From Lachnospiraceae bacterium (lineage in GTDB: Bacteria; Bacillota; Clostridia; Lachnospirales; Lachnospiraceae), in contig JAKSRT010000013.1 in the NCBI GenBank assembly GCA_024403485.1, positions 1-37,558 on the forward strand: a stretch of DNA of 37,558 bases, read 5' to 3'. A program made the position numbers and the translations under genes. Position 1 is the first letter of the stretch; the number at the start of each line of letters is the position of its first letter. Below are positions 25,733 to 37,558 of this stretch, one piece after another. Below the pieces are notes generated by a model. That model was not told the origin of the DNA and did not search any database. It saw only the letters and a program-made list of their open reading frames with translations.

Positions 25733-26029
25733 ATGAGCGAGAATAAAAAGAAAAAAGTGAAATATATTGATGATGGAAGAACCATTGCCAATATGAATGT
25801 AGAGGGGATGCCCTGGTATAATCCGGCTAAAGCTTCCAATATAGCTGAGGACGCCAATTTAAGTGAAAATTCGGCTAAATCCCGTGAATTAGTTAATCCT
25901 GAACCTTTGGGATTTAAGGAAACCGTTGCCATGACAAAGGGAGTTTTGGCTGCGGCTTTGTTAATTGGCGGAATATTTGTTATAATATTTTTGCTTTTTA
26001 TTTTATTTTGCGTTTATGTATGGTTTTAA
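25733..26029 (+). CDS. Small single-helix membrane protein, unknown
   Basis: Family not recognised. The 98 residues have a lysine-rich start (ENKKKKVKYIDDGRTIANMNVEGMPWYNP), then a polar region, and one C-terminal membrane helix (about 70-95). The motif YIDDGRTIANMNVEGMPWY looks conserved-like and may face the cytoplasm. I chose the ATG at 25733 over 25685 because the latter lies within the opp terminator; AAAGAG about 10 nt upstream is a weak ribosome site. It is 15 nt from the next small membrane protein gene, which suggests a two-gene operon. Confidence 0.6.
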   Translation: MSENKKKKVKYIDDGRTIANMNVEGMPWYNPAKASNIAEDANLSENSAKSRELVNPEPLGFKETVAMTKGVLAAALLIGGIFVIIFLLFILFCVYVWF

Positions 26030-26044
26030 TCGAGGAATAATATT

Positions 26045-26491
26045 ATGACAATGGATGAATGGAACGAACAGAACGGCACTGCCAAAGAAGCCGAGACTGC
26101 TCAGTGGCTTGACGCTGATGACGTAGTTGTGGAAGAACCTCCGAAGATTAAAAATGCGGTAGTAACCGAGAATAATGACAAGCCGGTTGAAGTTGCCAAT
26201 ACTTCATCCAAGTTCGGAACGATATCACTGGTTTTGGGTGTTTTCTCCATATTGATGGGTGTTTTCTTCGCCGGAGCACCGATGATAGGTATTTTGCTTG
26301 GCGCGGGTGCAATTACCCTTGGCGCATTGGAGAGAAAGAACGGAAACCCTCAGACAAAAGGTCCTGCAACCGGAGGACTTGTCTGCGGTATTGTAGGTGT
26401 GTCTTTAAGCATCATATTCGGTATTATATGCAGCCTGATAAGCACCGCTATAGGAATTGTATTTAGGGTATTCAGCTGGCTGTTTATGTAG
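26045..26491 (+). CDS. DUF4190-like small membrane protein
   Basis: The 148 residues have a ~55-residue acidic cytoplasmic start (EWNEQNGTAKEAETAQW), then two glycine-rich helical hairpins: ISLVLGVFSILMGVFFAG...LLGAGAITLGALERKNGN and GGLVCGIVGVSLSIIFGI. That Gly-rich repeat with the -ALG-like loop resembles DUF4190 proteins of unknown function. GAGGAA precedes the ATG. A terminator follows the stop. Confidence 0.6.
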   Translation: MTMDEWNEQNGTAKEAETAQWLDADDVVVEEPPKIKNAVVTENNDKPVEVANTSSKFGTISLVLGVFSILMGVFFAGAPMIGILLGAGAITLGALERKNGNPQTKGPATGGLVCGIVGVSLSIIFGIICSLISTAIGIVFRVFSWLFM

Positions 26492-26499
26492 TATTTATT

Positions 26500-26526
26500 A
26501 CCTCCGTCTTTGGGCGGAGGTTTTTT
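26500..26526 (+). terminator. Intrinsic terminator after the DUF4190-like gene
   Basis: CCTCCG pairs with CGGAGG around an 8-nt loop, followed by six T. Confidence 0.9.
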
Positions 26527-26595
26527 GCGCTATGGGGATGTTAACACGTCTCTTGATAATCTGAAAAACTTCTTCAAAATCTTTTTGATTTCCTA

Positions 26596-26622
26596 TAAAG
26601 TTATTATAAAAATGGCCGATAA
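26596..26622 (+). promoter_or_regulatory. Sigma-28 (SigD/FliA) promoter of the flgM operon
   Basis: TAAA at 26596-26599 and GCCGATAA at 26615-26622 are separated by exactly 15 bp, a perfect match to the flagellar sigma-28 consensus. Transcription would start near 26630. Since flgM encodes the anti-sigma factor of this same sigma, the operon is autoregulated. Confidence 0.9.
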
Positions 26623-26637
26623 AATATGTAGATGAAA

Positions 26638-26662
26638 GGGTCATGGATGACCCGGAAGGAGG
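26638..26662 (+). promoter_or_regulatory. Predicted CsrA-binding leader of flgM
   Basis: A 6-bp hairpin (GGGTCA/TGACCC) presents GGA in the tetraloop TGGA (26644-26647) and is followed at once by GGAAGGAGG (26654-26662), the Shine-Dalgarno of flgM. A looped GGA plus a GGA at the ribosome site is the standard layout for CsrA repression. Confidence 0.6.
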
Positions 26663-26669
26663 AACATTT

Positions 26670-26945
26670 ATGCGTATAGAAGCTTATACACAGGTTCAGC
26701 AGGCTTACAATTCCTCAAAGGTTAGAAGGGAGCAGAACGTAGTTCGTAAGGGACCTACAGATCAGGTACAGATCAGCTCCATGGGTATGGATATGCAGGT
26801 TGCCAAGGCATCTGTTAAGGCAGCAAGCGACATTCGATACGATGTAGTAGAACCCTTAAAGAAGGCCATTAACGAGGGAACTTATGATGTCAGCGGCGAA
26901 AGCTTTGCAGACAAGTTATTAAAGAAATATGAAGCAATGAGGTAG
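26670..26945 (+). CDS. flgM: Anti-sigma-28 factor FlgM
   Basis: This 91-residue protein has the C-terminal FlgM pattern: DQVQISSMG followed by a helix, VVEPLKKAINEGTYDVSGESFADKLLKKY. It holds sigma-28 inactive until the hook is complete and FlgM is secreted. The start at 26670 follows GGAGG; an in-frame ATG at 26643 falls within the leader hairpin and is rejected. First gene of the late flagellar operon, 4 nt ahead of flgN. Confidence 0.9.
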   Translation: MRIEAYTQVQQAYNSSKVRREQNVVRKGPTDQVQISSMGMDMQVAKASVKAASDIRYDVVEPLKKAINEGTYDVSGESFADKLLKKYEAMR

Positions 26946-26949
26946 TTCG

Positions 26950-27468
26950 ATGGCCAGTCTGGTAGAAAATCTAATTGATGTTTTAAATCAGGAGGATTCG
27001 GAATATCAGAAGCTCATCGAGCTGTCCTCAGGAAAAACCCAGGCCATTGTGGAAGGCGATCTTGTTAAACTGGAGCAAATCACGGATGATGAGCAGACAG
27101 TTGTCGACGCCATAAACGGTCTCGAAAAGAATCGCGAAGCCACAATGCTAAAAATTGCTAAAATCCTCAACACGGACGTTTCGGGACTTAAGCTCAAAGT
27201 TCTTATTTCGCTTTTGGACAAGTCTCCAAAAGAGCAGCAGGCATTGGCAAAGGTACATGATAAACTTCATAATACTTTGCACCAGATGAAACTGTTAAAT
27301 GAGAGAAATGAAGAACTTTTAAACAGTGCCAAGGAAATGGTGGATTTTAATCTTAATTTGATCCAGGCCATGAGAAAGGCACCTGAAACCGCAAACTATG
27401 ATAGGGGCGCGTACAATACGGGAAGCCTTATCGGCGGAGTAAGCGGTGGTTTTGATGCCAAACAGTAA
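26950..27468 (+). CDS. flgN: Flagellar export chaperone FlgN
   Basis: This 172-residue, mostly helical cytoplasmic protein has a FlgN-type N-terminus (LVENLIDVLNQEDSEYQKLIELSSGKTQAI) and long amphipathic helices to about 140, then a flexible Gly-rich tail. FlgN escorts the hook-filament junction proteins FlgK and FlgL to the export gate, which fits its place directly upstream of two flgK genes. Confidence 0.85.
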   Translation: MASLVENLIDVLNQEDSEYQKLIELSSGKTQAIVEGDLVKLEQITDDEQTVVDAINGLEKNREATMLKIAKILNTDVSGLKLKVLISLLDKSPKEQQALAKVHDKLHNTLHQMKLLNERNEELLNSAKEMVDFNLNLIQAMRKAPETANYDRGAYNTGSLIGGVSGGFDAKQ

Positions 27469-27512
27469 GGAGAAACTCCGTGAATATTTAGTCGTTATGT
27501 GAGGAATTAGTT

Positions 27513-29309
27513 ATGTCGTTGACAAGTGGTTTATATGTTGGAACTTCAGGATTGCAGACAAGCCAGAACGCCCTTAATACCACTGCGCATAACTTGTCAA
27601 ACATGGAGACTGAAGGGTATGTGCGTCAGCAGGTACTCTCATCTGATAAAGTCTATAATACAATCAAAAAGGCATCTGTGTCCGTGTCCGCCCAGCAGGT
27701 TGGTATCGGTGTTACTTATGCCAAGGTTCGTCAGGTCAGAGATTATTTCCTTGACCTTTCTTACCGTCGTGAAGCCGGCCGAAGCGCTTTCTACGACGAA
27801 TCCTATAACGCCATGACAGAGGTTGAAGACCTCTTAGATGAAATGAATGATGATGCAAGCTTCAATAAGTCACTAAGCAATTTCTGGTCAACAATAGAAG
27901 AGCTTGCAAAAACCCCCGATGATACTACGGTTCAGAGAATGCTGGTTCAGAATGCTCAGTCTTTCCTGACAAACGCTTCTCAGGTATATCAGGGGTTAAT
28001 TGACTATCAGAATGAACTTAATGCTCATATTAAAGATCAGGTTAATCATATAAATGAGCTTGGAAATAGAATTTACAGTCTAAACGACAAAATCAGATCA
28101 ATTGAAGTTGGTGGTGTTGAAGAGGCCAATGACCTTAGAGACGAAAGAAACCACTGCCTCGATGAGCTGGCAAGCCTTGTAAATATTAAGTATTCGGAAG
28201 ACCTTTTCGGTTCCGTAAGAGTAGCGGTTGAAGGTGTGGATTTCGTTGCAAGTGATACCGTTTATGAAATGAATGTTGTACAGGATACGGTTACAGGCTT
28301 TTACATCCCCTATTGGGAATTTGCAGCAACTCCCGTATCTGACAGCAGCAAGGCAGGAGAAAATGTATACACTGCCAATGACGGTTCTTTGCTTGATATA
28401 TCAGCAGCAAGAGTCTTCAATATGAATGCATTGATTTCTTCGGAGAAGAATACCGATGTCGGAAAACTCAGAGCAATGCTTTATATCCGTGGCGATAAGG
28501 TTGCCAATTATGCTGACATTCCGGTAAAGCCGGAACCTCCTGAGGAAGCCGATTATGCGGGTGATCCGGTTGGACTTGAAGCAGCAAAGGCTAAATATCT
28601 TGCAGATTTGGACAGATACGAAGCAGATACCGATTATTATAATCATACGGTTGCCCAGTCGGTATGCATGAACATTCAGGCTGAATTTGATCAGCTTATA
28701 CATAATGTTGTTACAACGGTAAACAAGATATTTGAGGATGTTTCCGATCCGACTACAGGTTATATGTGTGATGATGACGGATCACCTCTTCAGTTATTCC
28801 AGAAAATCGCTTCAGACGGTTACAGATTTGAAGGCGGTGAATGGAAATTTAACGAAGAAAATACTGTGGACAAAACCCGTACGGAAACCCTTTACAGTAT
28901 TCCGAACCTTCAGGTTAACCCCACACTTATCCGTGAAGCCGGTAAAATGGGATTTGTATTCCCTGACGGAACCGTAGATTATGAAACTGCAGCGAAGCTT
29001 ATTGCAGGATTCGATGCTGATATTTACGTATTAAATCCTAATGTAACAACAAAGTGCAGTATTAACTCATATTATTCAAGCCTTGTTTCACAGGTTGCCA
29101 ATTCAGGATCTGTTTACAAAAATATTTCGGATTCACAACAGGCAACGGTTAACTCGATATACAACTCAAGGGAACAGGTTCAGGGTGTTTCTTCCGATGA
29201 AGAATTAACCTCTATGATTAAATTTCAAAATGCTTACAATGCATCCTCAAGATACATTACGGTTATCGATGAGATGTTAGAGCATATAATTCAGACTCTT
29301 GCCGTATAA
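27513..29309 (+). CDS. flgK: Flagellar hook-associated protein FlgK, copy 1
   Basis: The 598 residues have the N-terminal rod/hook motif (GLYVGTSGLQTSQNALNTTAHNLSNMETEGYVRQ) and the C-terminal SSDEELTSMIKFQNAYNASSRYITVIDEML helix of FlgK, which together form the hook-filament junction coiled-coil. The central domain is variable, with a proline/acidic stretch (PVKPEPPEEADYAGDP, ~332-347). GAGGAA precedes the ATG. The next gene encodes a second, distinct FlgK. Confidence 0.9.
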   Translation: MSLTSGLYVGTSGLQTSQNALNTTAHNLSNMETEGYVRQQVLSSDKVYNTIKKASVSVSAQQVGIGVTYAKVRQVRDYFLDLSYRREAGRSAFYDESYNAMTEVEDLLDEMNDDASFNKSLSNFWSTIEELAKTPDDTTVQRMLVQNAQSFLTNASQVYQGLIDYQNELNAHIKDQVNHINELGNRIYSLNDKIRSIEVGGVEEANDLRDERNHCLDELASLVNIKYSEDLFGSVRVAVEGVDFVASDTVYEMNVVQDTVTGFYIPYWEFAATPVSDSSKAGENVYTANDGSLLDISAARVFNMNALISSEKNTDVGKLRAMLYIRGDKVANYADIPVKPEPPEEADYAGDPVGLEAAKAKYLADLDRYEADTDYYNHTVAQSVCMNIQAEFDQLIHNVVTTVNKIFEDVSDPTTGYMCDDDGSPLQLFQKIASDGYRFEGGEWKFNEENTVDKTRTETLYSIPNLQVNPTLIREAGKMGFVFPDGTVDYETAAKLIAGFDADIYVLNPNVTTKCSINSYYSSLVSQVANSGSVYKNISDSQQATVNSIYNSREQVQGVSSDEELTSMIKFQNAYNASSRYITVIDEMLEHIIQTLAV

Positions 29310-29357
29310 GGCAAAAGAAAGTAACTGATTGATTAAGGTATTTAGCGAGGAAAAGAG

Positions 29358-31265
29358 ATGCCTTCACAATTTTTTGGATTAAATATTTCATATACAGGTC
29401 TTACGGCAGCCAACGCAGGTCTTAATACCGTTTCAAACAACATTTCCAATGCGGAAACGGAAGGCTACTCAAGACAGAGCGCAACTCAGGAAGCGAATCT
29501 TGCGCTCAGAACATTCACTACCTACGGATGTGCCGGTGCCGGTGTAGATACGATTGCCATTGAACGTCTTCATGATGATTTTTACGATACAAAGTATTGG
29601 GATAATCATGAGAAACTTGGCGAGAATACAATTAAGTCATACTACATGGAAAGCCTTGAAAACTATTTTGTGGATGATGAAAGAACAGCAGGCTTTAACA
29701 CTACTCTGGATCTTATGTACAACGCGCTTGAAGAATTGTCCAAGGATGCAGGCAGTTCCTCCACAAAATCCCAGTTTGTTCATTATGCACAGAGCTTGTG
29801 CGACTACTTCAACACAATATCCAATCAGCTGAGTGAACTTCAGAAGGATATTAATATGGAAATTAAGGATACAGTATCCCAGATTAATTCCATTGCAGAA
29901 CAGGTTGCCACACTTAATAAGCAGATAAACGTAATTGAACTTACCGGATCACATGCCAATGAGCTTCGCGATAAGAGAGCTCTTTTGATTGATCAGCTTT
30001 CCGAGTATGTTTCGGTTGATGTAAAGGAAACTCCTATCGTTGACACCGTTAACAACTATGATACGGGAGCAAACCGATACATGGTTACAATTGCGGGCGG
30101 CCAGATTCTTGTAGATACCAATGAATACAACAATATCGAGTGTGTTCAGAGAGAAGTATATGAAACCGTTAATCAGTCCGATGCCGTAGGTCTTTATGAA
30201 TTAAAGTGGGACAACGGAGCCAACTTTAATTTATACAGTACAATGACCGGCGGAAAGCTTCAGGGTCTTATAGAACTTCGTGACGGAAACAATACAGAAC
30301 ACTTTACCGGTAAGGTATCAAAGGTTGATCTTGAGAATAACCGGGTGGAAATAAAGGTTTCCTATGATTATCTTAAGGATCTTGATAAGTGTACTTTATC
30401 AAGCACCGGCGGAAAAATCGCACTGGGTAATGAAATGTTTTATTATTCCGACTGGGAATACAAAATGGATGCTGACGGAAACTGCACTTATACCTTCCAG
30501 CTGGATGAAACATACGGAGTTAATCATCTTTCGAACTCGAGACTTGATAAGGTAGCTCAGGTCGGAAGATCTGTTGACTACCAGGGAATTCCTTATTATC
30601 AGGAACAGTTAAACGAGTTTGTAAGACTGTTTGCAAAAAACTTCAACAAGATTCTTCTTCAGGATGGTGCCGTAGATTCCTACGGAAATGCCGGACAGAT
30701 TCTTTTTGCGGGAAATACCGCACTTGGCGGTCAGTTTGACTTTGATGATTATTATAAGGACGGTTCCAAGGTTTGTTACTCAAAGGACCGTGACGATACT
30801 GACGATCAGCCCTTCTACGATACCTATTATCTTTTGACCGCGGCTAATTTCGCAATTAATAAAGAAGTATCGGATGACCCTCAGAAACTGGCTACCAGAA
30901 CAGGTCTTACCGACGGTGAATCGAAAGCTGATATTGTATTTGAACTTCTTGAACTTAAGCACGATTCCACAAAGCTTGTGTCCGATACCGGAACGATGGG
31001 ATTCAGAGGCGGTTCCACCAGTGAATTTTTACAGAGTCTGCTTTCCGATGTGGCACTTAATTCATCGAGAGCCAAATCGGGAAAGACATATTATAACACC
31101 ATGGGAAATACAATAAATAACCAGAGAATTTCCATTTCCGGTGTTGATTCCGATGAAGAGGCAATAAGCCTTGTAAGATATCAAAATAATTACAACCTTG
31201 CCTCTAAAATGATTCAGACTTTTACCGAAATATATGATAGATTAATTCTTCAAACCGGAGTATAA
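29358..31265 (+). CDS. flgK2: Flagellar hook-associated protein FlgK, copy 2
   Basis: The 635 residues again show the FlgK ends: GLNISYTGLTAANAGLNTVSNNISNAETEGYSRQ at the N-terminus and SDEEAISLVRYQNNYNLASKMIQTFTEIYDRLI at the C-terminus. The middle differs strongly from copy 1, so this is an old duplication rather than a recent copy. It may form a second junction ring or be an alternative junction protein. AGCGAGGAAAAG lies just upstream of the ATG. Confidence 0.9.
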   Translation: MPSQFFGLNISYTGLTAANAGLNTVSNNISNAETEGYSRQSATQEANLALRTFTTYGCAGAGVDTIAIERLHDDFYDTKYWDNHEKLGENTIKSYYMESLENYFVDDERTAGFNTTLDLMYNALEELSKDAGSSSTKSQFVHYAQSLCDYFNTISNQLSELQKDINMEIKDTVSQINSIAEQVATLNKQINVIELTGSHANELRDKRALLIDQLSEYVSVDVKETPIVDTVNNYDTGANRYMVTIAGGQILVDTNEYNNIECVQREVYETVNQSDAVGLYELKWDNGANFNLYSTMTGGKLQGLIELRDGNNTEHFTGKVSKVDLENNRVEIKVSYDYLKDLDKCTLSSTGGKIALGNEMFYYSDWEYKMDADGNCTYTFQLDETYGVNHLSNSRLDKVAQVGRSVDYQGIPYYQEQLNEFVRLFAKNFNKILLQDGAVDSYGNAGQILFAGNTALGGQFDFDDYYKDGSKVCYSKDRDDTDDQPFYDTYYLLTAANFAINKEVSDDPQKLATRTGLTDGESKADIVFELLELKHDSTKLVSDTGTMGFRGGSTSEFLQSLLSDVALNSSRAKSGKTYYNTMGNTINNQRISISGVDSDEEAISLVRYQNNYNLASKMIQTFTEIYDRLILQTGV

Positions 31266-31301
31266 CGGTTAAATTAAAACTATCAGAGAAGAGGATTAAA
31301 A

Positions 31302-32807
31302 ATGAGAATAACCAATAAGATTATTCAGAACAATTCCCTTACAAATATTAATAACAATAAAATTCTTCAGGATACGCTTTCAACACAGATTGCTACCGAA
31401 AAAAAGATAAGCAGACCTTCCGATGATCCGATTATTGCACTTCGTTCGTTAAGACTTCGTACAAATGTAAGTCAGACAGAACAGTACAAAGAAAAGAATG
31501 CGGAAGATGCTGAATCTTGGCTTGAAGTAACCGAAGATGCTATCAATACACTTTCGGAGATTATTACCGATATACGTAAACAATACGTTAAGGGGGCAAG
31601 TGATACACTTACTGCAGCGGACAGAAAGATTATTTTGGAAAACCTGGAAGCTTTGGCTGCAGAAATATATAACACAGGAAATGCCGACTTTGCGGGAAGA
31701 AGCATTTTTACCGGCTTCAGAACCGATACTTCACTTACTTTTGAAAAGAACGAAGAGGTTGATTTTAAAATTTGGGAAGAAGGCAATGCAGACAGCCTTG
31801 ACTCAGTAAATTATACCCACAAGGATGATAATGTCGAACAGAATGTTGACAGGGAAGAAATAGCAAGATTTCGTTTGGCATACAGCGGCTTAAAAGAAGG
31901 CAGTAATGCTGTCATAAGATTTACCAATAAGGCAGGAACAGCGCCGACGGTGACAGGAGCAACTCCTGATGATACAGACGGTGACGGAACCAACGATGCA
32001 GCCATGATTACAGCAACATCGGTATCCGTTTCCGACAATCCCAATCCATAAAATACAGAGAAGAACGATGATAACGCGGTAGTATTCGTAAAAGAAACCG
32101 GCGAGCTTCTTTTTGGTAAAAATATCGCCGATGCCATTAAAAATGATGAATTGTCCTTCAATGTTGAGTATGAAAGGGATAAGTGGACAAAGGGTGATTT
32201 AAGACCTCAGCACTATTTCAAATGTCTTGATCAGGGCAGCAGTATTGAATATAACTTTGACGCTTCTCCGGAAGCAGAAATCAATTATAACATCGGAGTT
32301 AATCAGTCACTCAGAATAAATACCAATGCCAGTGAGTGCTTTACTCACAATATTAAGAGAGATATCGACGATATAATAAGAGCGATAAACAGTGTTGATG
32401 AAACAGAAGCAACGCTAATTAAACTAAAGGCCGACAGAGATGCACTTCCAGAAAGCGATCCGGGAAGAGAAGCAATCCAAAAGCAGATTGACGCTGTTGA
32501 AAAGACTTTCACTTACGTAAAGGATACTATGTCAAACCTTTTCGGTGCCGGCATTACAAAGGCTGAAGGCTATTTAACAAGAAATAATCTGGCTCTTACC
32601 AACATCGGTACACGAAGCAAGAGACTTGAACTTATTCAGAACAGACTTGGAACCCAGCTTTCCACATTGAAAGAACTGAAGTCTGAAAATGAAGATGTTG
32701 ATATGGCAGAAACAGCCGTTAAGTTATCAAGCGCATCTTATGCATATGATGCGGCACTTATGGCTACAAGTAAAACATTAACAGAATCACTTCTTAACTA
32801 TTTATAA
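31302..32807 (+). pseudogene. flgL: FlgL hook-filament junction protein, interrupted by an in-frame TAA
   Basis: The frame from 31302 reads a FlgL N-terminus (MRITNKIIQNNSLTNINNNK, SRPSDDPIIALRSLRLRTNV) for 249 residues to TAA at 32049-32051. The same frame then continues without another stop to 32807, with the FlgL C-terminus (NLALTNIGTRSKRLELIQNRLGTQ, AETAVKLSSASYAYDAALMATSKTL). The full frame is 501 codons. The stop lies in the variable surface domain, next to a DTDGDGTND stretch. No frame change is involved, so one substitution (from CAA, GAA or AAA) explains it. No in-frame start with a good ribosome site follows soon after (a TTG at 32151 is weak). Sequencing error, a true null allele, read-through, or a working split protein are the options. 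Confidence 0.75.
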
Positions 32808-32822
32808 AACGGAGGGTTAAAA

Positions 32823-33284
32823 ATGACTATTGAAACTCGTATTTTCGGCGAAGTAACAATCGACGATAACAAAATTATTCATTTTGAAAACGGCATTGTC
32901 GGATTTCCCGATCTTACCGATTTTGCATTAATTTATGATGCCGAAGACGGAAATGATGTAGGTATCAGATGGATGCAGTCACTTCAGGAAACAAATTTTG
33001 CAATGCCTGTTATGGATCCGCTTCTTGTTAAAGAAGATTACAATCCGATAGTTGATGACGAGATGTTAAAATCTCTTGGTTCACTGGATGTTGACCAGCT
33101 TCTTGTTCTTGTAACAATAACAGTTCCCAAGGACATTAAGGAAATGAGTGCAAACTTAATGGGACCTTTGGTCATTAATGCAGAAACCAAAAAAGCAGTT
33201 CAGATTATTGTTGACGGCGATTACCCTGTTAAGTTCCCTATCTATGACATTTTAGATGCCAGAAAGAAGGTGGGCACATGTTAG
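32823..33284 (+). CDS. fliW: Flagellar assembly factor FliW
   Basis: This 153-residue protein shows the FliW pattern: TRIFGEVTIDDNKIIHFENGIVGFPDLTDFALI at the N-terminus and LLVLVTITVPKDIKEMSANLMGPLVINAETKKAVQII. FliW binds CsrA and flagellin alternately, releasing flagellin mRNA from CsrA when flagellin protein has been exported. AGGAGG-like GGAGGG precedes the ATG. The stop overlaps the csrA start by 7 nt, so the partners are coupled in amount. Confidence 0.95.
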   Translation: MTIETRIFGEVTIDDNKIIHFENGIVGFPDLTDFALIYDAEDGNDVGIRWMQSLQETNFAMPVMDPLLVKEDYNPIVDDEMLKSLGSLDVDQLLVLVTITVPKDIKEMSANLMGPLVINAETKKAVQIIVDGDYPVKFPIYDILDARKKVGTC

Positions 33285-33496
33285 CATTATCAAGAAAGAA
33301 AAATGAAGCATTAGTTATTAATAACAATATTGAAATAACTGTTCTTGAGATAAAAGGAGAGCAGGTTAAGATCGGTATTTCCGCACCCAAAGAAGTTCCG
33401 ATTTATCGTAAAGAAGTATATGTGCAGATTCAGGATGCAAATAAGGAAGCTATGAATGCAGATTCACTTGCAAGCCTTAAGAATCTGTTCGGCTAA
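33278..33496 (+). CDS. csrA: Carbon storage regulator CsrA
   Basis: This 72-residue RNA-binding protein has the canonical N-terminus MLALSRKKNEALVI, the core VLEIKGEQVKIGISAPKEVPIYRKEVY and a short C-terminal extension. It binds GGA motifs in loops and at ribosome sites and blocks translation. All three flagellar leaders in this window carry such sites, including that of its own operon. FliW, made from the overlapping gene, is its antagonist. Confidence 0.97.
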   Translation: MLALSRKKNEALVINNNIEITVLEIKGEQVKIGISAPKEVPIYRKEVYVQIQDANKEAMNADSLASLKNLFG

Positions 33497-33547
33497 AAAT
33501 ATATATTGTTTCGTTAACTTTTATGCTATAAAATACATACATAACTA

Positions 33548-33575
33548 TAAACTTTTCTTTCTACCTGTCCGATAA
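33548..33575 (+). promoter_or_regulatory. Sigma-28 promoter of the flaG operon, within the csrA terminator
   Basis: TAAA at 33548-33551 and TCCGATAA at 33568-33575 have a 16-bp spacer (15 is ideal). The -10 element falls almost entirely in the loop of the terminator that ends the csrA transcript. The expected start is near 33582. Confidence 0.6.
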
Positions 33576-33600
33576 TACAGGTAGGAAGAAATCTTTTTTT
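33554..33600 (+). terminator. Intrinsic terminator of the flgM-csrA operon
   Basis: A 15-bp stem (TTTCTTTCTACCTGT with ACAGGTAGGAAGAAA, one T-G pair) encloses the 8-nt loop CCGATAAT and is followed by TCTTTTTTT. The loop contains the -10 element of the next promoter. Confidence 0.9.
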
Positions 33601-33601
33601 A

Positions 33602-33626
33602 GTGGAACGGATTCCACAGACAGGAG
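33602..33626 (+). promoter_or_regulatory. Predicted CsrA-binding leader of flaG
   Basis: A 6-bp hairpin (GTGGAA/TTCCAC) presents GGA in the tetraloop CGGA (33608-33611), followed by CAGGAG (33621-33626), the Shine-Dalgarno of flaG. Same layout as the flgM and flagellin leaders. Confidence 0.6.
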
Positions 33627-33633
33627 ATAAGAT

Positions 33634-34050
33634 ATGGCTATCGAACCAATAAACAGCATTATGACGATGCAGGCACAGTCGATTCAGCCCGCAAACAATA
33701 CCACAAAATCTGCCATGGAGTACACGGATGTTTCTATCGCAGAAAACGCGCCCAAAGTAGATGAGACTACAAAGGTTGTTGAAAACGTTGATGAGAAGGA
33801 CAGTAATTTCAACAGAGAAAATCAGCAGCCCAGCAACGAACAGCTTCACAAGGCCGTTGAAGATTTAAACAAGAAAATGAGCAACTCCGAAGCAGTCTTT
33901 GGTATTCATGAAGGAACCAACAGAGTAACCATTAAGATTGTTGATAAGAAGTCCAAGGAAGTAATTAAGGAACTTCCTCCCGAGAAGACTCTTGATATGA
34001 TTGCAAGAGTGTGGGAAATGGCAGGATTACTTGTCGACGAGCGCAGATAA
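33634..34050 (+). CDS. flaG: Flagellar protein FlaG
   Basis: The 138 residues have a disordered acidic N-terminal half and a FlaG C-terminal domain: EQLHKAVEDLNKKMSNSEAVFGIHEGTNRVTIKIVDKKSKEVIKELPPEKTLDMIARVWEMAGLLVDERR pattern, with the hallmark I-K-E-L-P-P-E-K. FlaG affects filament length and is usually found upstream of fliD, as here (30 nt before it). Confidence 0.9.
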   Translation: MAIEPINSIMTMQAQSIQPANNTTKSAMEYTDVSIAENAPKVDETTKVVENVDEKDSNFNRENQQPSNEQLHKAVEDLNKKMSNSEAVFGIHEGTNRVTIKIVDKKSKEVIKELPPEKTLDMIARVWEMAGLLVDERR

Positions 34051-34080
34051 CTGCGTGATTATTGCTAAGGAGGATACTAT

Positions 34081-35862
34081 ATGCCTACACGTATTACAGG
34101 TATGAGTTCCGGACTTGATACCGAAAGCATCATTCAGGAACTTGTAAAAGCTAAAAGTACAAAAGTTACAACATTAAAGAAAAATAATACCCGTCTTGAA
34201 TGGAAACAGGATGCATGGAAAGATCTTAACAAAGAACTTAAGTCTCTTCAGTCAAAGTTCGGTAGTCTTCGTTTTACATCCGATTTAAAGAAAAAAACTT
34301 CAAGCGTAAGTAATCCCAATGCCGTAAAAGTTATTACAGGCAGCGGCGCTATGAATTCCGTTCAGTCTCTTTCAATTAAGCAGCTTGCAAAGTCCGGATA
34401 TTTAACCGGTCAGAAGGTTGCTTCTGAAGATGGGGCATCTGTTACCAAGGAAACCACATTAAGCAGTCTGACATTAAAGGATGCTGACGGTAATCCCGTA
34501 AGCGGACTTACGGATACAAACGGTGGTTCATTTACCGTAACTACCGGCGGAAAGTCTACAACAATTTCCATCGGAGAAGATACAAAGATATCCGATATTG
34601 TGAGTCAGCTTAACAAGGCAGGAGTTTCCGCAAACTTCGATGAGAAAAACCAGCGTTTTTATATCGGTGCATCGGGCAGCGGAAAAGCCAATGATTTTGC
34701 TATAACTGCTGATAATGCAGCCGGTTTTTCGGCATTAAGCGTTCTTGGAATAAATGTTGATCCGGCTAATGCTCAGAACAAAGCTACTGCTGACGAATAT
34801 AAGAAATATACAGACTACTATTCAGCTTTAAAAGATCAGGATAAGGATGCGGCAATCAGTGCCATTACAGAGGATGTAGACTCTGAGATTTATAAGATGC
34901 TTAAGGCTGAAGCTTCAGATAAGGAAAATCCTGATTTCAGCGAAGCTTATGACAAACTTATGGCAAAGATGGAAGCTGCGGAAATGGCAACAAATGCTTC
35001 AGGCAGCAGCCTCTATTCTAAAGGAGCTGTCAAGCTTGCCGGTGAAGATGCTTTAATCGAGCTTAACGGAGCTGAATATACATCCGCTACCAACAGTGTG
35101 GAAGTAAACGGGCTTACGTTTGAATGCTTTGCGGTAGCTGATGATATTACCGTAACAACCAAAGATGACACCGACGGTATTTATGACCAGGTTAAGGGTC
35201 TTCTTAAGCAGTACAATGAAGTAATAAACAAAATCGATAAACTTTACAATGCCGGAACCGCTAAGGGTTATGATCCCCTTACCGATGAAGAGAAGGATGC
35301 GTTAACGGATTCGGAAGTTGAGAAGATTGAAAATAAGGTAAAAGAATCTCTTCTTAGAAAAGATACTACCCTTCAGAATATTTTCTCTTCACTTAAAGAG
35401 ACAATGGCATCCGGTTATGAGGTTGGCGGAAAGACAATGTATCTTTCTGATTTCGGTATCGGAACCTTAAGCTATTTTGAGGCTGCGGACTTTGAACATT
35501 CCGCATATCATATTGACGGCGATAAAGATGATGAAAAGACATCCGGAAACGCGGATAAGCTTAAGTCAATGATCGCTACAGATCCGGACGCGGTTGTCGG
35601 TTTCTTTTCAAAACTGTTTGACTCAGTTTATTCAAAAATGAATGATTTATCAAAGAGTACCACAAACTCTTCGTTTGGCAGTTTCTATGATGATAAATCA
35701 ATGAAAAAGGAATTAACCGACTTTACCAGTCAGATTTCAAAAGCAGAAGCTAAGCTTAATGAATATGAAGATAAATATTATGCTAAATTTGCCAAGATGG
35801 AATCTGCGCTGTCAGCAATGGAATCTAAGAACAGTTATCTTTCCGGATTGTTCGGACAATAA
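34081..35862 (+). CDS. fliD: Flagellar filament cap protein FliD
   Basis: The 593 residues contain the FliD N-terminal domain (ITGMSSGLDTESIIQELVKAKSTKV, residues 4-28) and the C-terminal domain (KGLLKQYNEVINKIDKLYN, about 376-394, through to the end helices). A helical, charged insertion (about 235-315, DEYKKYTDYYSALKDQDKDAA) interrupts the middle and is a variable surface part. FliD forms the cap that folds flagellin at the filament tip; the FliS-like and FliT-like chaperones follow. GGAGG lies 8 nt before the ATG. Confidence 0.93.
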   Translation: MPTRITGMSSGLDTESIIQELVKAKSTKVTTLKKNNTRLEWKQDAWKDLNKELKSLQSKFGSLRFTSDLKKKTSSVSNPNAVKVITGSGAMNSVQSLSIKQLAKSGYLTGQKVASEDGASVTKETTLSSLTLKDADGNPVSGLTDTNGGSFTVTTGGKSTTISIGEDTKISDIVSQLNKAGVSANFDEKNQRFYIGASGSGKANDFAITADNAAGFSALSVLGINVDPANAQNKATADEYKKYTDYYSALKDQDKDAAISAITEDVDSEIYKMLKAEASDKENPDFSEAYDKLMAKMEAAEMATNASGSSLYSKGAVKLAGEDALIELNGAEYTSATNSVEVNGLTFECFAVADDITVTTKDDTDGIYDQVKGLLKQYNEVINKIDKLYNAGTAKGYDPLTDEEKDALTDSEVEKIENKVKESLLRKDTTLQNIFSSLKETMASGYEVGGKTMYLSDFGIGTLSYFEAADFEHSAYHIDGDKDDEKTSGNADKLKSMIATDPDAVVGFFSKLFDSVYSKMNDLSKSTTNSSFGSFYDDKSMKKELTDFTSQISKAEAKLNEYEDKYYAKFAKMESALSAMESKNSYLSGLFGQ

Positions 35863-35881
35863 CTTACAGGAGGACTGATAA

Positions 35882-36259
35882 ATGGCATTACCAAATGCAT
35901 ACAGTCAGTACAATAACAGTAAAATATTAACAGCTTCGCCTGCTGAGTTAACACTTCTTTTATATGAAGGAGCGATTAAATTCGGAAATATTGCGATTGT
36001 TAAAATGGAACATAAAGATGTTCAGGGAGCACACAATAATATCATAAGAGTCGGAAAGATTATTGATTATTTAAGAGAGACTCTTGATATGAAATATCCG
36101 GTGGCTCAGGATTTTGAAAACATATATGTATATTTGTCATCGCGCATTAATGATACGATGGTATCCAAAGATCCTAAGGACATGGAAGAGGTTGTCGAAC
36201 ATTTAAGATCCGTTCGAGACAATTGGAAAGAAGTAATGAAAAAGGCAGGAGTAAGATGA
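35882..36259 (+). CDS. fliS: Flagellar export chaperone FliS
   Basis: This 125-residue helical cytoplasmic chaperone has the characteristic N-terminus NAYSQYNNSKILTASPAELTLLLYEGAIKF. It binds the C-terminus of newly made flagellin, prevents early polymerisation and guides it to export. ATG follows AGGAGG by 7 nt. The stop overlaps the next start (ATGA). Confidence 0.95.
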   Translation: MALPNAYSQYNNSKILTASPAELTLLLYEGAIKFGNIAIVKMEHKDVQGAHNNIIRVGKIIDYLRETLDMKYPVAQDFENIYVYLSSRINDTMVSKDPKDMEEVVEHLRSVRDNWKEVMKKAGVR

Positions 36260-36744
36260 GCAATACTTATATTACTGCATTAACGGAGAGCCTTGAGAAA
36301 AAAATAGAGGTTCTCAATAAAATTCATGAAAAAGATGAAGAGCAGCTTAGTATCGCCAAGACAGAGCCGTTTTCCTTTGAAGCATTCGATAAGAATGTCG
36401 AAGAAAAGGATGTTCTTATATATAAGCTGGTTAAGCTTGACGAAGGCTTTGAAATTGTATATGAAAATGTCAAAGCTGAGTTAAATGCCAATAAGGACTT
36501 ATATAAAGAAGAAATAAAAAAGATGCAGAAGCTGATTACGGATATTACTGCATTGAGTACCAAAATTCAGGCCGAGGAAGCCAGAAATAAAGCGGCTATG
36601 GAAGCAGCCTTCAGAAACGAAAAACAGCGCCTTAAAAGCAGCAGATCCAGCGTAAAGGCCGTAAACAGTTATGCTAAAGCCATGAGAAGCGGTACAGGCA
36701 GTAACTTCTCCGGTATTTCCGGAATCGGAAATGATTGGAATTAA
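36256..36744 (+). CDS. FliT-like/FlgN-like small helical flagellar protein
   Basis: The 162 residues are almost fully helical, with coiled-coil heptads from about 10 to 125 and a Ser/Gly-rich tail. Position directly after fliS is that of fliT, the FliD chaperone, but sequence identity to FliT is not evident by eye. The ATG at 36256 follows AGGAG and overlaps the fliS stop codon as ATGA; an in-frame ATG at 36223 within fliS is rejected. A type III export chaperone for FliD is the most likely role (inference). Confidence 0.65.
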   Translation: MSNTYITALTESLEKKIEVLNKIHEKDEEQLSIAKTEPFSFEAFDKNVEEKDVLIYKLVKLDEGFEIVYENVKAELNANKDLYKEEIKKMQKLITDITALSTKIQAEEARNKAAMEAAFRNEKQRLKSSRSSVKAVNSYAKAMRSGTGSNFSGISGIGNDWN

Positions 36745-36779
36745 TCAATAATTAATCAAAAAAAAGTTATTTTAGGTGT

Positions 36780-36805
36780 TAATATTTCGGAAATTACTCC
36801 GATAT
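36780..36805 (+). promoter_or_regulatory. Sigma-28 promoter of the flagellin gene
   Basis: TCCGATAT at 36798-36805 is a good sigma-28 -10 element; a weaker -35 element TAAT lies at 36780-36783 (14-bp spacer). Transcription would begin near 36812 and leave a ~128-nt leader before the ATG at 36940. Confidence 0.7.
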
Positions 36806-36815
36806 ATTATATAAC

Positions 36816-36934
36816 AAAGGAAAACAACATTCCTTTAACCGAAATCTTTAACCAACGGAGCGTACGGCCGACGGAGCGGATTTCATAACAATCACATATT
36901 TGTAGCAAGGATGCTACATCTTATTTCAAGGAGG
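36816..36934 (+). promoter_or_regulatory. Structured flagellin leader with predicted CsrA sites
   Basis: The leader holds, in order: a hairpin AAAGGAA/TTCCTTT (36816-36836), two direct copies of ACGGAGCG 16 bp apart (36855-36862, 36871-36878), a hairpin TGTAGC/GCTACA with loop AAGGAT (36901-36918), and the Shine-Dalgarno CAAGGAGG (36927-36934). The loop core CAAGGATG equals the core of the CsrA consensus, and the second GGA overlaps the ribosome site, as in the known CsrA control of hag in Bacillus subtilis. Confidence 0.7.
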
Positions 36935-36939
36935 AAATT

Positions 36940-37558
36940 ATGGTAGTACAACACAACTTAACAGCGATGAACTCTAACAGAATGCTCGGCATTACTGCTG
37001 GAACACAGGCAAAGTCAACAGAAAAGTTATCTTCAGGTTACAAGATTAACCGTGCAGCTGATGATGCAGCAGGTCTTGCAATCAGCGAAAAGATGAGACG
37101 TCAGGTTCGTGGTTTAACACAGGCATCTGCTAACGCTCAGGATGGTATTTCTGCAGTTCAGACAGCAGAAGGCGCACTTGCAGAAGTTCATGATATGCTC
37201 CAGAGAATTAATGAACTTGCAGTAAAGGCAGCTAACGATACAAACCAGTCAACAGACCGTGATTACATCCAGTCTGAAATCGATGCATTAGTAGAAGAAA
37301 TCGATCGTGTACAGAGCACAACAACCTTCAATGAACAGAGTCTTCTTGACGGAAGCTTTAGCGGAAAGAAACTCCAGGTTGGTTCAGAAAAGGATCAGGT
37401 TATCGCTATTTCTATCGGTAGCATGGATGCTTCTACTCTTGGCGTAGATTCTCTTGATGTTTCTAGCCATGACGGTGCAAAGAATGCTATTGATAGTGTT
37501 AAGACAGCACTTGAAACTGTTTCCGCACAGAGATCAGATCTTGGTGCAGTTCAGAACA
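36940..37558 (+). CDS. hag: Flagellin, N-terminal part (cut by the right edge)
   Basis: The frame is open from the ATG at 36940 to the window end (206 codons). It starts MVVQHNLTAMNSNRMLGITA and continues with the conserved STEKLSSGYKINRAADDAAGLAISEKMR and GISAVQTAEGALAEVHDMLQRINELAVKAANDT blocks of the flagellin N-terminal D0/D1 helices. CAAGGAGG lies 5 nt upstream. The last visible segment (KTALETVSAQRSDLGAVQN) already resembles the C-terminal helix, so the variable middle domain is short or absent and the full protein is probably about 270 residues. Codon bias indicates high expression. Confidence 0.95.
   Translation, partial: MVVQHNLTAMNSNRMLGITAGTQAKSTEKLSSGYKINRAADDAAGLAISEKMRRQVRGLTQASANAQDGISAVQTAEGALAEVHDMLQRINELAVKAANDTNQSTDRDYIQSEIDALVEEIDRVQSTTTFNEQSLLDGSFSGKKLQVGSEKDQVIAISIGSMDASTLGVDSLDVSSHDGAKNAIDSVKTALETVSAQRSDLGAVQN

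Follow-up and report, generated by a model that had tools for sequence, protein, structure and literature searches.

Control of flagellin by CsrA is already known in Bacillus and in Clostridioides difficile, and binding of CsrA to flaG and flgM is known in Campylobacter jejuni. According to passages of a review (PMC7652899), the CsrA/RsmE site is a hairpin with an ANGGAN hexaloop – the consensus from systematic evolution of ligands by exponential enrichment (SELEX) being RUACARGGAUGU, with AC and GU paired – and two sites can be bridged over 10-63 nucleotides (nt), with an optimum above 18 nt. The same passages, reviewing Yakhnin 2007 and Mukherjee 2011, place two sites in the leader of Bacillus subtilis hag, one of them over the Shine-Dalgarno (SD) sequence, with FliW antagonizing CsrA; in Escherichia coli glgC a hairpin site just 5' of the SD and a site at the SD are bridged by one dimer. 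Here we analyze a stretch of 37,558 nt from a Lachnospiraceae bacterium (hereafter the window: contig JAKSRT010000013.1 of assembly GCA_024403485.1, our contig C31; the assembly comprises 2.19 Mb and is 73% complete), in which hairpins with GGA in the loop precede the SD sequences of three flagellar genes: flgM, flaG and the flagellin gene (hag/fliC). On the sequence evidence we consider it likely that these hairpins are CsrA binding sites on flagellar mRNAs of the sigma-28 type, gated by FliW, and that such sites cover flagellin, FlaG, an uncharacterised protein of 196 amino acids (aa) and, in this clade, FlgM.

In C. jejuni, as far as passages of PMC4894983 report, CsrA binds the flaA, flaG, flaB, flgI and flgM leaders, and flgM RNA is shifted by it in vitro; two ANGGA loops are present in flaA, one of them covering the ribosome site, and the level of FlaG depends on FliW and CsrA. 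Binding to flaG, flaB and flgI is described there as weaker (Kd >350 nM), with protein levels little changed on deletion of csrA alone. The 5' untranslated region of C. difficile fliC has two predicted hairpins, CBS1 and CBS2, the second over the SD, and FliW again antagonizes CsrA (passages of PMC11898703). For Eubacterium and Roseburia, flgM-csrA and flaG-fliC clusters have been described and CsrA named as a possible regulator, and GGA sites in leaders do not figure in the passages concerned (PMC3720852). Our search of the open-licence PMC literature turned up neither CsrA sites of flaG or flgM in Lachnospiraceae nor a switch in flaG architecture.

Looped GGA hairpins in three flagellar leaders

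Perfect-stem searches locate the three hairpins, which, like all genes described below for the window, are on the + strand. The flgM leader contains GGGTCA-TGGA-TGACCC (26638-26653), a stem of six base pairs (bp) followed by the SD region GGAAGGAGGA (26654..26663), with GGAs at 26654, 26658 and 26661, and by the ATG at 26670. In the flaG leader GTGGAA-CGGA-TTCCAC (33602-33617, also 6 bp) precedes the SD AGGAG (33622..33626, GGA at 33623) and the ATG at 33634. The flagellin leader contains TGTAGCA-AGGA-TGCTACA (36901-36918), which can be read as 7 bp with loop AGGA or as 6 bp with loop AAGGAT; the GGAs of its SD are at 36930 and 36933 and the ATG is at 36940. A first-pass annotation, made from the letters alone, had noted these looped GGAs ahead of GGA-containing SDs, and all three are present where it placed them. 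Read as CsrA hexaloops they are C[ATGGAT]G (flgM), A[ACGGAT]T (flaG) and C[AAGGAT]G (flagellin): all fit the ANGGAN target, and in each leader a second GGA lies in or adjoins the SD. The distance from the start of the loop GGA to that of the SD GGA is 13 nt for flgM, 14 nt for flaG and 21 nt for flagellin, all within the range of 10-63 nt.

Two further structures were set aside. The flagellin SD lies in a weak hairpin of its own, ATTTC[AAGGAG]GAAAT (36923..36938), which is not diagnostic for CsrA: its core TTC[AAGGAG]GAA persists in genomes without detected CsrA and was rejected as evidence. A 24-nt "hairpin" 5' of flaG (33561-33584) is not counted as a leader structure because it overlaps a sigma-28-type −10 box.

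Over the whole + strand of the window there are four perfect NGGA tetraloop hairpins with stems of at least 5 bp, of which three are those preceding the flgM, flaG and flagellin SDs and the fourth, at 34496, lies inside fliD; on the minus strand there is one GGA tetraloop hairpin, of 5 bp. Dinucleotide shuffles of 70-nt leaders of the relatives surveyed below produce an ANGGAN hairpin with a stem of at least 5 bp in 0.12 of 65 flgM, 0.14 of 45 flaG and 0.08 of 65 hag leaders, and the product of these shuffle rates puts the chance of all three hairpins at about 1e-8. The flgM and flaG hairpins are part of the minimum-energy fold, with folding z-scores of −2.4 for flgM and of −5.0 and −2.4 for two flaG spans. 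A search of Rfam at E values up to 5 over 26000-37558 gave three matches, all far under the gathering scores, and thus no known RNA family.

A hairpin model built from 51 hairpins including the window's three (R1) ranks these three first in the 2.19 Mb genome, with E values of 0.005 (flagellin, the best), 0.048 and 0.070 (flgM, third); the next match, at 0.70, lies inside a frame that we take to be adk. Below the top three stand six matches in the same genome (E 0.7-7.4), among which the sole leader (L143, E 5.7) belongs to the 196-aa protein; the other five lie inside open frames (L139, the presumed adk; L140; L141; L142, presumably a flagellin gene; L144). A second model, R2, built with no own or flgM sequences, gives 25.9 bits for the flagellin, 20.6 for the flaG and 17.1 for the flgM leader of the window, and in the window's own genome the flagellin leader alone passes E 0.5. 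Across 18 genomes of the genus – part of whose flagellin and flaG sequences trained this model – R2 finds 28 places at E up to 0.5: 13 flagellin leaders, 9 flaG leaders and 6 that are coding or unclear. That the structures arose by chance is very improbable: the motifs are short and one similar hairpin does occur inside fliD, but the shuffle expectation and the genome-wide ranking argue against it, and for flagellin and flaG it is already refuted.

Recurrence of the hairpins among relatives

A FliW match was obtained in 122 of 194 genomes, the window's own included. From 79 of the 121 others we fetched a first set of 80 flagellar stretches, on which 12 genes were located by script; a replicate set comprised 80 named loci, from which leaders identical to earlier ones over the last 60 nt were removed. 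Leaders were scored over their last 70 nt for ANGGAN hairpins whose stems have 4 bp or more, for which shuffles give 0.2-0.6 per gene (0.4-0.5 for hag, flaG and flgM). For counts of the motif CANGGANG in the two sets pooled, replicate leaders identical over the last 45 nt were removed. Leaders without a findable start and flagellin matches with the start uncovered were left out of the counts. As the scans required ANGGAN, they cannot by themselves show that the loop is constant; the constant loop letters of alignments A1-A3, whose rows were picked for ANGGAN and pairing, were likewise rejected as evidence.

The flagellin leader carries the hairpin in 55 of 65 first-set and 38 of 45 replicate leaders, and it lies 5' of the SD in 52 and 36 of these sets, respectively. 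Its stems vary widely among relatives, in rows chosen for pairing. Among 72 related genomes without a FliW match ten have flagellin, and of these ten nine have no CsrA match and none has FliW by Pfam. Here the upstream ANGGAN hairpin is absent from all eight flagellin leaders read (from 12 matches, in five genomes that are 89-100% complete and have no detected CsrA or FliW), and by eye from the three flaG leaders of G124, G193 and G129, which have no CsrA or FliW match. As a control, 16 order-level genomes, all with CsrA, were read: nine have the hairpin upstream in one or more of the leaders read, in some cases weakly or at a distance from the start, and in a further three 3-bp versions were seen by eye. 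The contrast between CsrA-bearing and CsrA-less genomes is in the expected direction, in a comparison that leaves relatedness uncontrolled.

The flaG leader has the hairpin in 34 of 45 first-set and 47 of 59 replicate leaders, without a single layout across the family. Within the window's genus, 13 of 15 readable leaders have an upstream hairpin with at most one G-U pair and a free SD; the exceptions are L040, whose hairpin has two G-U pairs, and L035, which has none. Outside the genus this upstream type hardly occurs (once among 30 leaders, with 4 bp in L083, and never among 59), and the SD itself is held in the loop, as in TCAC[ACGGAG]GTGA, in 20 of the 30 and 47 of the 59.

Compensatory change, which had been proposed as a check on the stems, is evident for flaG in both architectures. 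In the genus 14 of 15 leaders share the hairpin position; among the 11 distinct sequences all cells are paired and four of five pairs have changed on both sides (covariation 0.67 vs 0.31 shuffled). Outside the genus we anchored all 91 flaG leaders at the SD without choice for pairing: in the 65 distinct sequences 85% of cells are paired, compared with a mean of 78% and a best of 82% in shuffles, none of 1000 reaching 85%. The inner CAC/GTG is nearly constant there and little informative; at the following pair most leaders have U-A, A-U, C-G or G-U. The score of A2 (20 flaG SD loops; 0.31 vs 0.12 shuffled) is inflated by the choice of paired rows. In the phylum-wide reading of flaG, taken from the best 29 of 157 other genomes with a match (three of them without a readable frame), there are no hairpins in 26 readable leaders with starts guessed by script, which hints that the flaG site is confined to Lachnospiraceae.

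The flgM leader and the case against CsrA

Several observations weigh against reading the hairpins as CsrA sites. Most SELEX sites had stems of at most 4 pairs (passages of PMC7652899), and the spacings of flgM and flaG fall under the stated optimum of more than 18 nt, which the flagellin leader alone meets. The flagellin hairpin is part of the centroid but is missing from the fold of minimum energy (z −1.1 and −0.7 for two spans), and the covariation score of A1 (51 upstream hairpins; 0.81 vs 0.19 shuffled) is inflated because, as in all of A1-A3, paired rows were chosen. Model R2 gives 17.7 bits to a stretch inside the flagellin gene (37416), more than to the flgM leader, and the flgM hairpin is therefore not independently significant. 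Two genomes without a CsrA match have looped-GGA flagellin hairpins, imperfect in G129 (77% complete) and present also in G009 (81% complete); we read both as cases of missing assembly. Seven of the 16 CsrA-bearing order-level genomes have no 4-bp upstream hairpin in the leaders read. The genomes without CsrA are mostly from other families, and one of them, G130, resembles the hairpin-free flagellin paralogue of its CsrA-bearing congener G148. Finally, only four of 12 readable genus members have the GGA-loop hairpin before flgM; of the eight without it, six have a GGA-less hairpin at the same place, and covariation over the four sequences is weak (both sides changed at two pairs; the score is reached by 29 of 500 shuffles).

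The flgM case can be set out further. The hairpin with a stem of at least 4 bp is present in 11 of 65 first-set and 4 of 48 replicate leaders, none of the 48 having it in the upstream position. The hairpin of the window recurs with a nearly identical stem in G002 and G014, and G017 has a different stem with the same form of loop, GTATC[ACGGAG]GATAC. In the pooled sets CANGGANG occurs in 35 of 113 flgM leaders, compared with 2.0 in shuffles, and a Watson-Crick stem of at least 3 bp in 30 of 113, compared with 1.1 expected; a frequent form is TCC[ANGGAA]GGA, which runs into the SD. By sequence, the motif in flgM leaders is enriched and poorly conserved. The annotation's claim of the same design on flgM is not supported in the form given: the hairpin, though present in the window, is lineage-specific.

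GGA-less hairpins stand directly 5' of the flgM SD in G001, G003, G013, G011, G004 and G012, in the forms GCAT[GTAA]ATGC, GCGT[GTAA]ACGC or GCAT[ATCT]ATGC.

From these patterns one may suppose that flagellin, FlaG and perhaps the uncharacterised gene are the targets of CsrA, and that the flgM hairpin is a local accident, a stem close to the ribosome-binding site having by chance acquired a GGA loop. The thin distribution of the GGA loop in the genus, the GGA-less stems in its place and its lack in the upstream position among replicate leaders are what this supposition would predict; the excess of CANGGANG and of short stems over shuffles, the different stem of G017 and the gel shift of flgM RNA by C. 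jejuni CsrA in vitro (passages of PMC4894983) run counter to it. We regard it as possible, if rather doubtful.

The hairpins might also work independently of CsrA, by tuning translation or the stability of the mRNA, or serve as the site of another protein, as the SD-adjacent GGA-less hairpins of six genus flgM leaders and the persistence of TTC[AAGGAG]GAA without detected CsrA could indicate. This is unlikely: ANGGAN hairpins exceed shuffles about a hundredfold in hag and flaG leaders and do not do so in csrA, fliW, flgN and flgK leaders, the loop equals the CsrA/RsmE form (passages of PMC7652899), and none of the eight flagellin leaders read from genomes without detected CsrA has the upstream hairpin.

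Reach of the putative switch

The first-pass annotation had gone further, proposing that CsrA controls the whole late flagellar set including, through the flgM leader, its own synthesis. The remaining leaders do not bear this out. The hairpin is present in 1 of 81 first-set and 0 of 65 replicate csrA leaders, with the same figures for fliW, and neither gene has it in the window; flgN (0/66 and 1/50), the first flgK (2/69 and 0/50), the second flgK (1/73 and 0/51) and fliT (0/53 and 0/56) are also near background. Direct autocontrol of csrA is not supported, because the csrA and fliW counts are near chance; any control of csrA would have to be indirect, through polarity from flgM, which lies 6.6 kb upstream. 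That flgM heads a cluster ending in fliW-csrA, and that a further sigma-28-type gene carries a site, speaks for the full proposal, but with these backgrounds and a flgM site that is not conserved we hold it to be quite improbable. The annotation's CsrA reading is supported by the form of the target, by its recurrence in flagellin and flaG leaders with compensatory changes in flaG, and by the position of csrA and fliW beside these leaders; the claims of one design on flgM and of control over the whole late set are not supported in the form given.

For fliD the counts are 0 of 28 and 2 of 20, these low totals arising because the fliD N-terminus aligns poorly. The hairpin is above background in flgL (4/78 and 5/56) and fliS (7/56 and 3/57), most leaders of both being without it; at least one of the flgL leaders counted, L081, belongs to a flagellin gene that the flgL query picked up. 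In the pooled sets CANGGANG occurs in 36 of 113 fliS leaders vs 3.4 expected, with a stem of at least 3 bp in 16 vs 1.0, and, judged by these motifs, CsrA may act on fliS too in some species of other genera. Two genus members (L036 and L037) have a separate flgL leader with a long GGA hairpin, TATTTAGGC[AAGGAA]GCCTGAATA and CGCAGAC[AAGGAC]GTCTGCG, with an AAGGAT loop further on by eye; in L036 a CCGATATA box lies just 5' of the leader hairpin.

A fourth leader lies outside the flagellar cluster of the window's genome. The gene of the uncharacterised 196-aa protein (with its leader, G000:C42:16057-16674; loci L143 and L315) is preceded by TCGC[ATGGAT]GCGA at G000:C42:16057-16076, 10 nt before the start, and then by AGAAAGGAAACCT and the ATG. 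Neither Pfam at 0.01 nor the PDB at E 1 yields a match to the protein, and nothing in NCBIfam exceeds its cut-off; 54 of 115 related genomes have it. We read the leaders of its best-scoring 30 loci, 14 of the genus and 16 others: the ANGGAN hairpin with a stem of at least 3 bp is found in all 14 genus leaders (0.21 expected) and with at least 4 bp in 12 (0.08), and among the 16 others in 9 (0.31 expected) and 4 (0.08), respectively. The stems differ (TCGC/GCGA, GGC/GCC, GCAC/GTGC, AGCAC/GTGCT, CCC/GGG), and the distance from hairpin to start is about 13-14 nt in one group and 33-46 nt in another. In 26 of the 30 loci a CCGATA-like box is present no more than 155 nt 5' of the gene, a count without shuffle control. 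The gene probably belongs to the late flagellar set, and as an extra sigma-28-type gene with a site it favours the idea of late-set control.

In the window itself, Pfam identifies flgM, flgN, two flgK genes, flgL, fliW and csrA, then flaG, fliD and fliS, plus flagellin; the gene 3' of fliS, here called fliT, matches FlgN only under the Pfam cut-off. The anti-sigma-28 factor gene flgM (26670..26945, PF04316) shares its cluster with flgN, flgK, flgK and flgL (26950..32807), followed by fliW (32823..33284, PF02623), whose 3' end overlaps the start of csrA (33278..33496, PF02599; 72 aa, with L4 and R44 present). Then come flaG (33634..34050, PF03646) with fliD and fliS, and the flagellin gene (36940..37558, PF00669), which runs off the window. 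Pattern searches place sigma-28-type promoters 5' of flgM (TAAA-N16-CCGATA, 26596..26621) and of flaG (TAAA-N17-CCGATA, 33548..33574), the only two matches in the window, where 0.59 are expected; a CCGATATA box 5' of flagellin, at about 36799, was read by eye. Boxes TAAA and MCGATAa are described for sigma-28, and such boxes are given for Butyrivibrio (passages of PMC3720852).

Residues 2-70 of the window's CsrA, its C-terminal part included, align to chain 5dmb_D and its FliW to chain 5dmb_A, which we take to be Geobacillus CsrA and its partner FliW in complex; the components of the partner switch – FliW and a CsrA with the C-terminal part – are thus present. The flgL gene of the window has a single in-frame TAA stop (32049-32051), and in relatives L032, L033, L034, L040 and L045 flgL is one open frame of 488-506 aa; the stop is either an assembly error or a recent mutation. 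The two flgK genes (27513-31265) are consecutive and non-identical, and Eubacterium and Roseburia are described alike (passages of PMC3720852).

Most probably the leaders work as an extension of the Bacillus switch, which here would take in flaG, the uncharacterised gene and, within this clade, also flgM. A CsrA dimer would dock on the looped ANGGAN of the flagellin, flaG or flgM leader, reach the GGA of the SD and block ribosome entry; in flaG of other genera it would dock on the SD held in the loop. The targets of the block would be flagellin, FlaG, the 196-aa protein and, within this clade, also FlgM. Free FliW would bind CsrA and lift the block, and unexported flagellin would take FliW away, such that these mRNAs would shut down together. 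From sequence we infer each of these elements: CsrA binding, repression, release by FliW and a functional flgM site. The fuller statement, that CsrA of Lachnospiraceae brakes several sigma-28 products at once, narrowly and under FliW gating, and that one genus rebuilt its flaG site from an SD in the loop to an upstream hairpin with a free SD, is tentative, and we put it a little short of evenly balanced.

Motile Lachnospiraceae present a major gut antigen in their flagellin. If the extended switch is real, the flagellin homeostasis switch of Bacillus would in this family also govern filament length and sigma-28 feedback, tying both, together with a late flagellar function still to be assigned, to flagellin export. 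The conserved hairpin points to an unannotated gene, probably of the late flagellar set, and the turnover of the flaG site offers natural pairs for comparing direct occlusion of a looped SD with bridging from upstream.

Set beside the described systems, the locus shares with E. coli glgC a hairpin site just 5' of the SD plus a site at the SD, which are bridged by one dimer in that system, of which FliW is not part in the review passages (PMC7652899). It resembles C. difficile in having two predicted hairpin sites; the passages there concern fliC and leave flgM unmentioned (PMC11898703). C. jejuni, where CsrA binding to flaG and flgM leaders is described, belongs to another phylum, whereas here the flaG sites recur across a family. 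The flagellin leader of the window has the same kind of site as B. subtilis hag; unlike there, the hairpin class is found here also on flaG, on the uncharacterised gene and, in this clade, on flgM, and the known brake on flagellin probably reaches further along flagellum assembly than has been reported.

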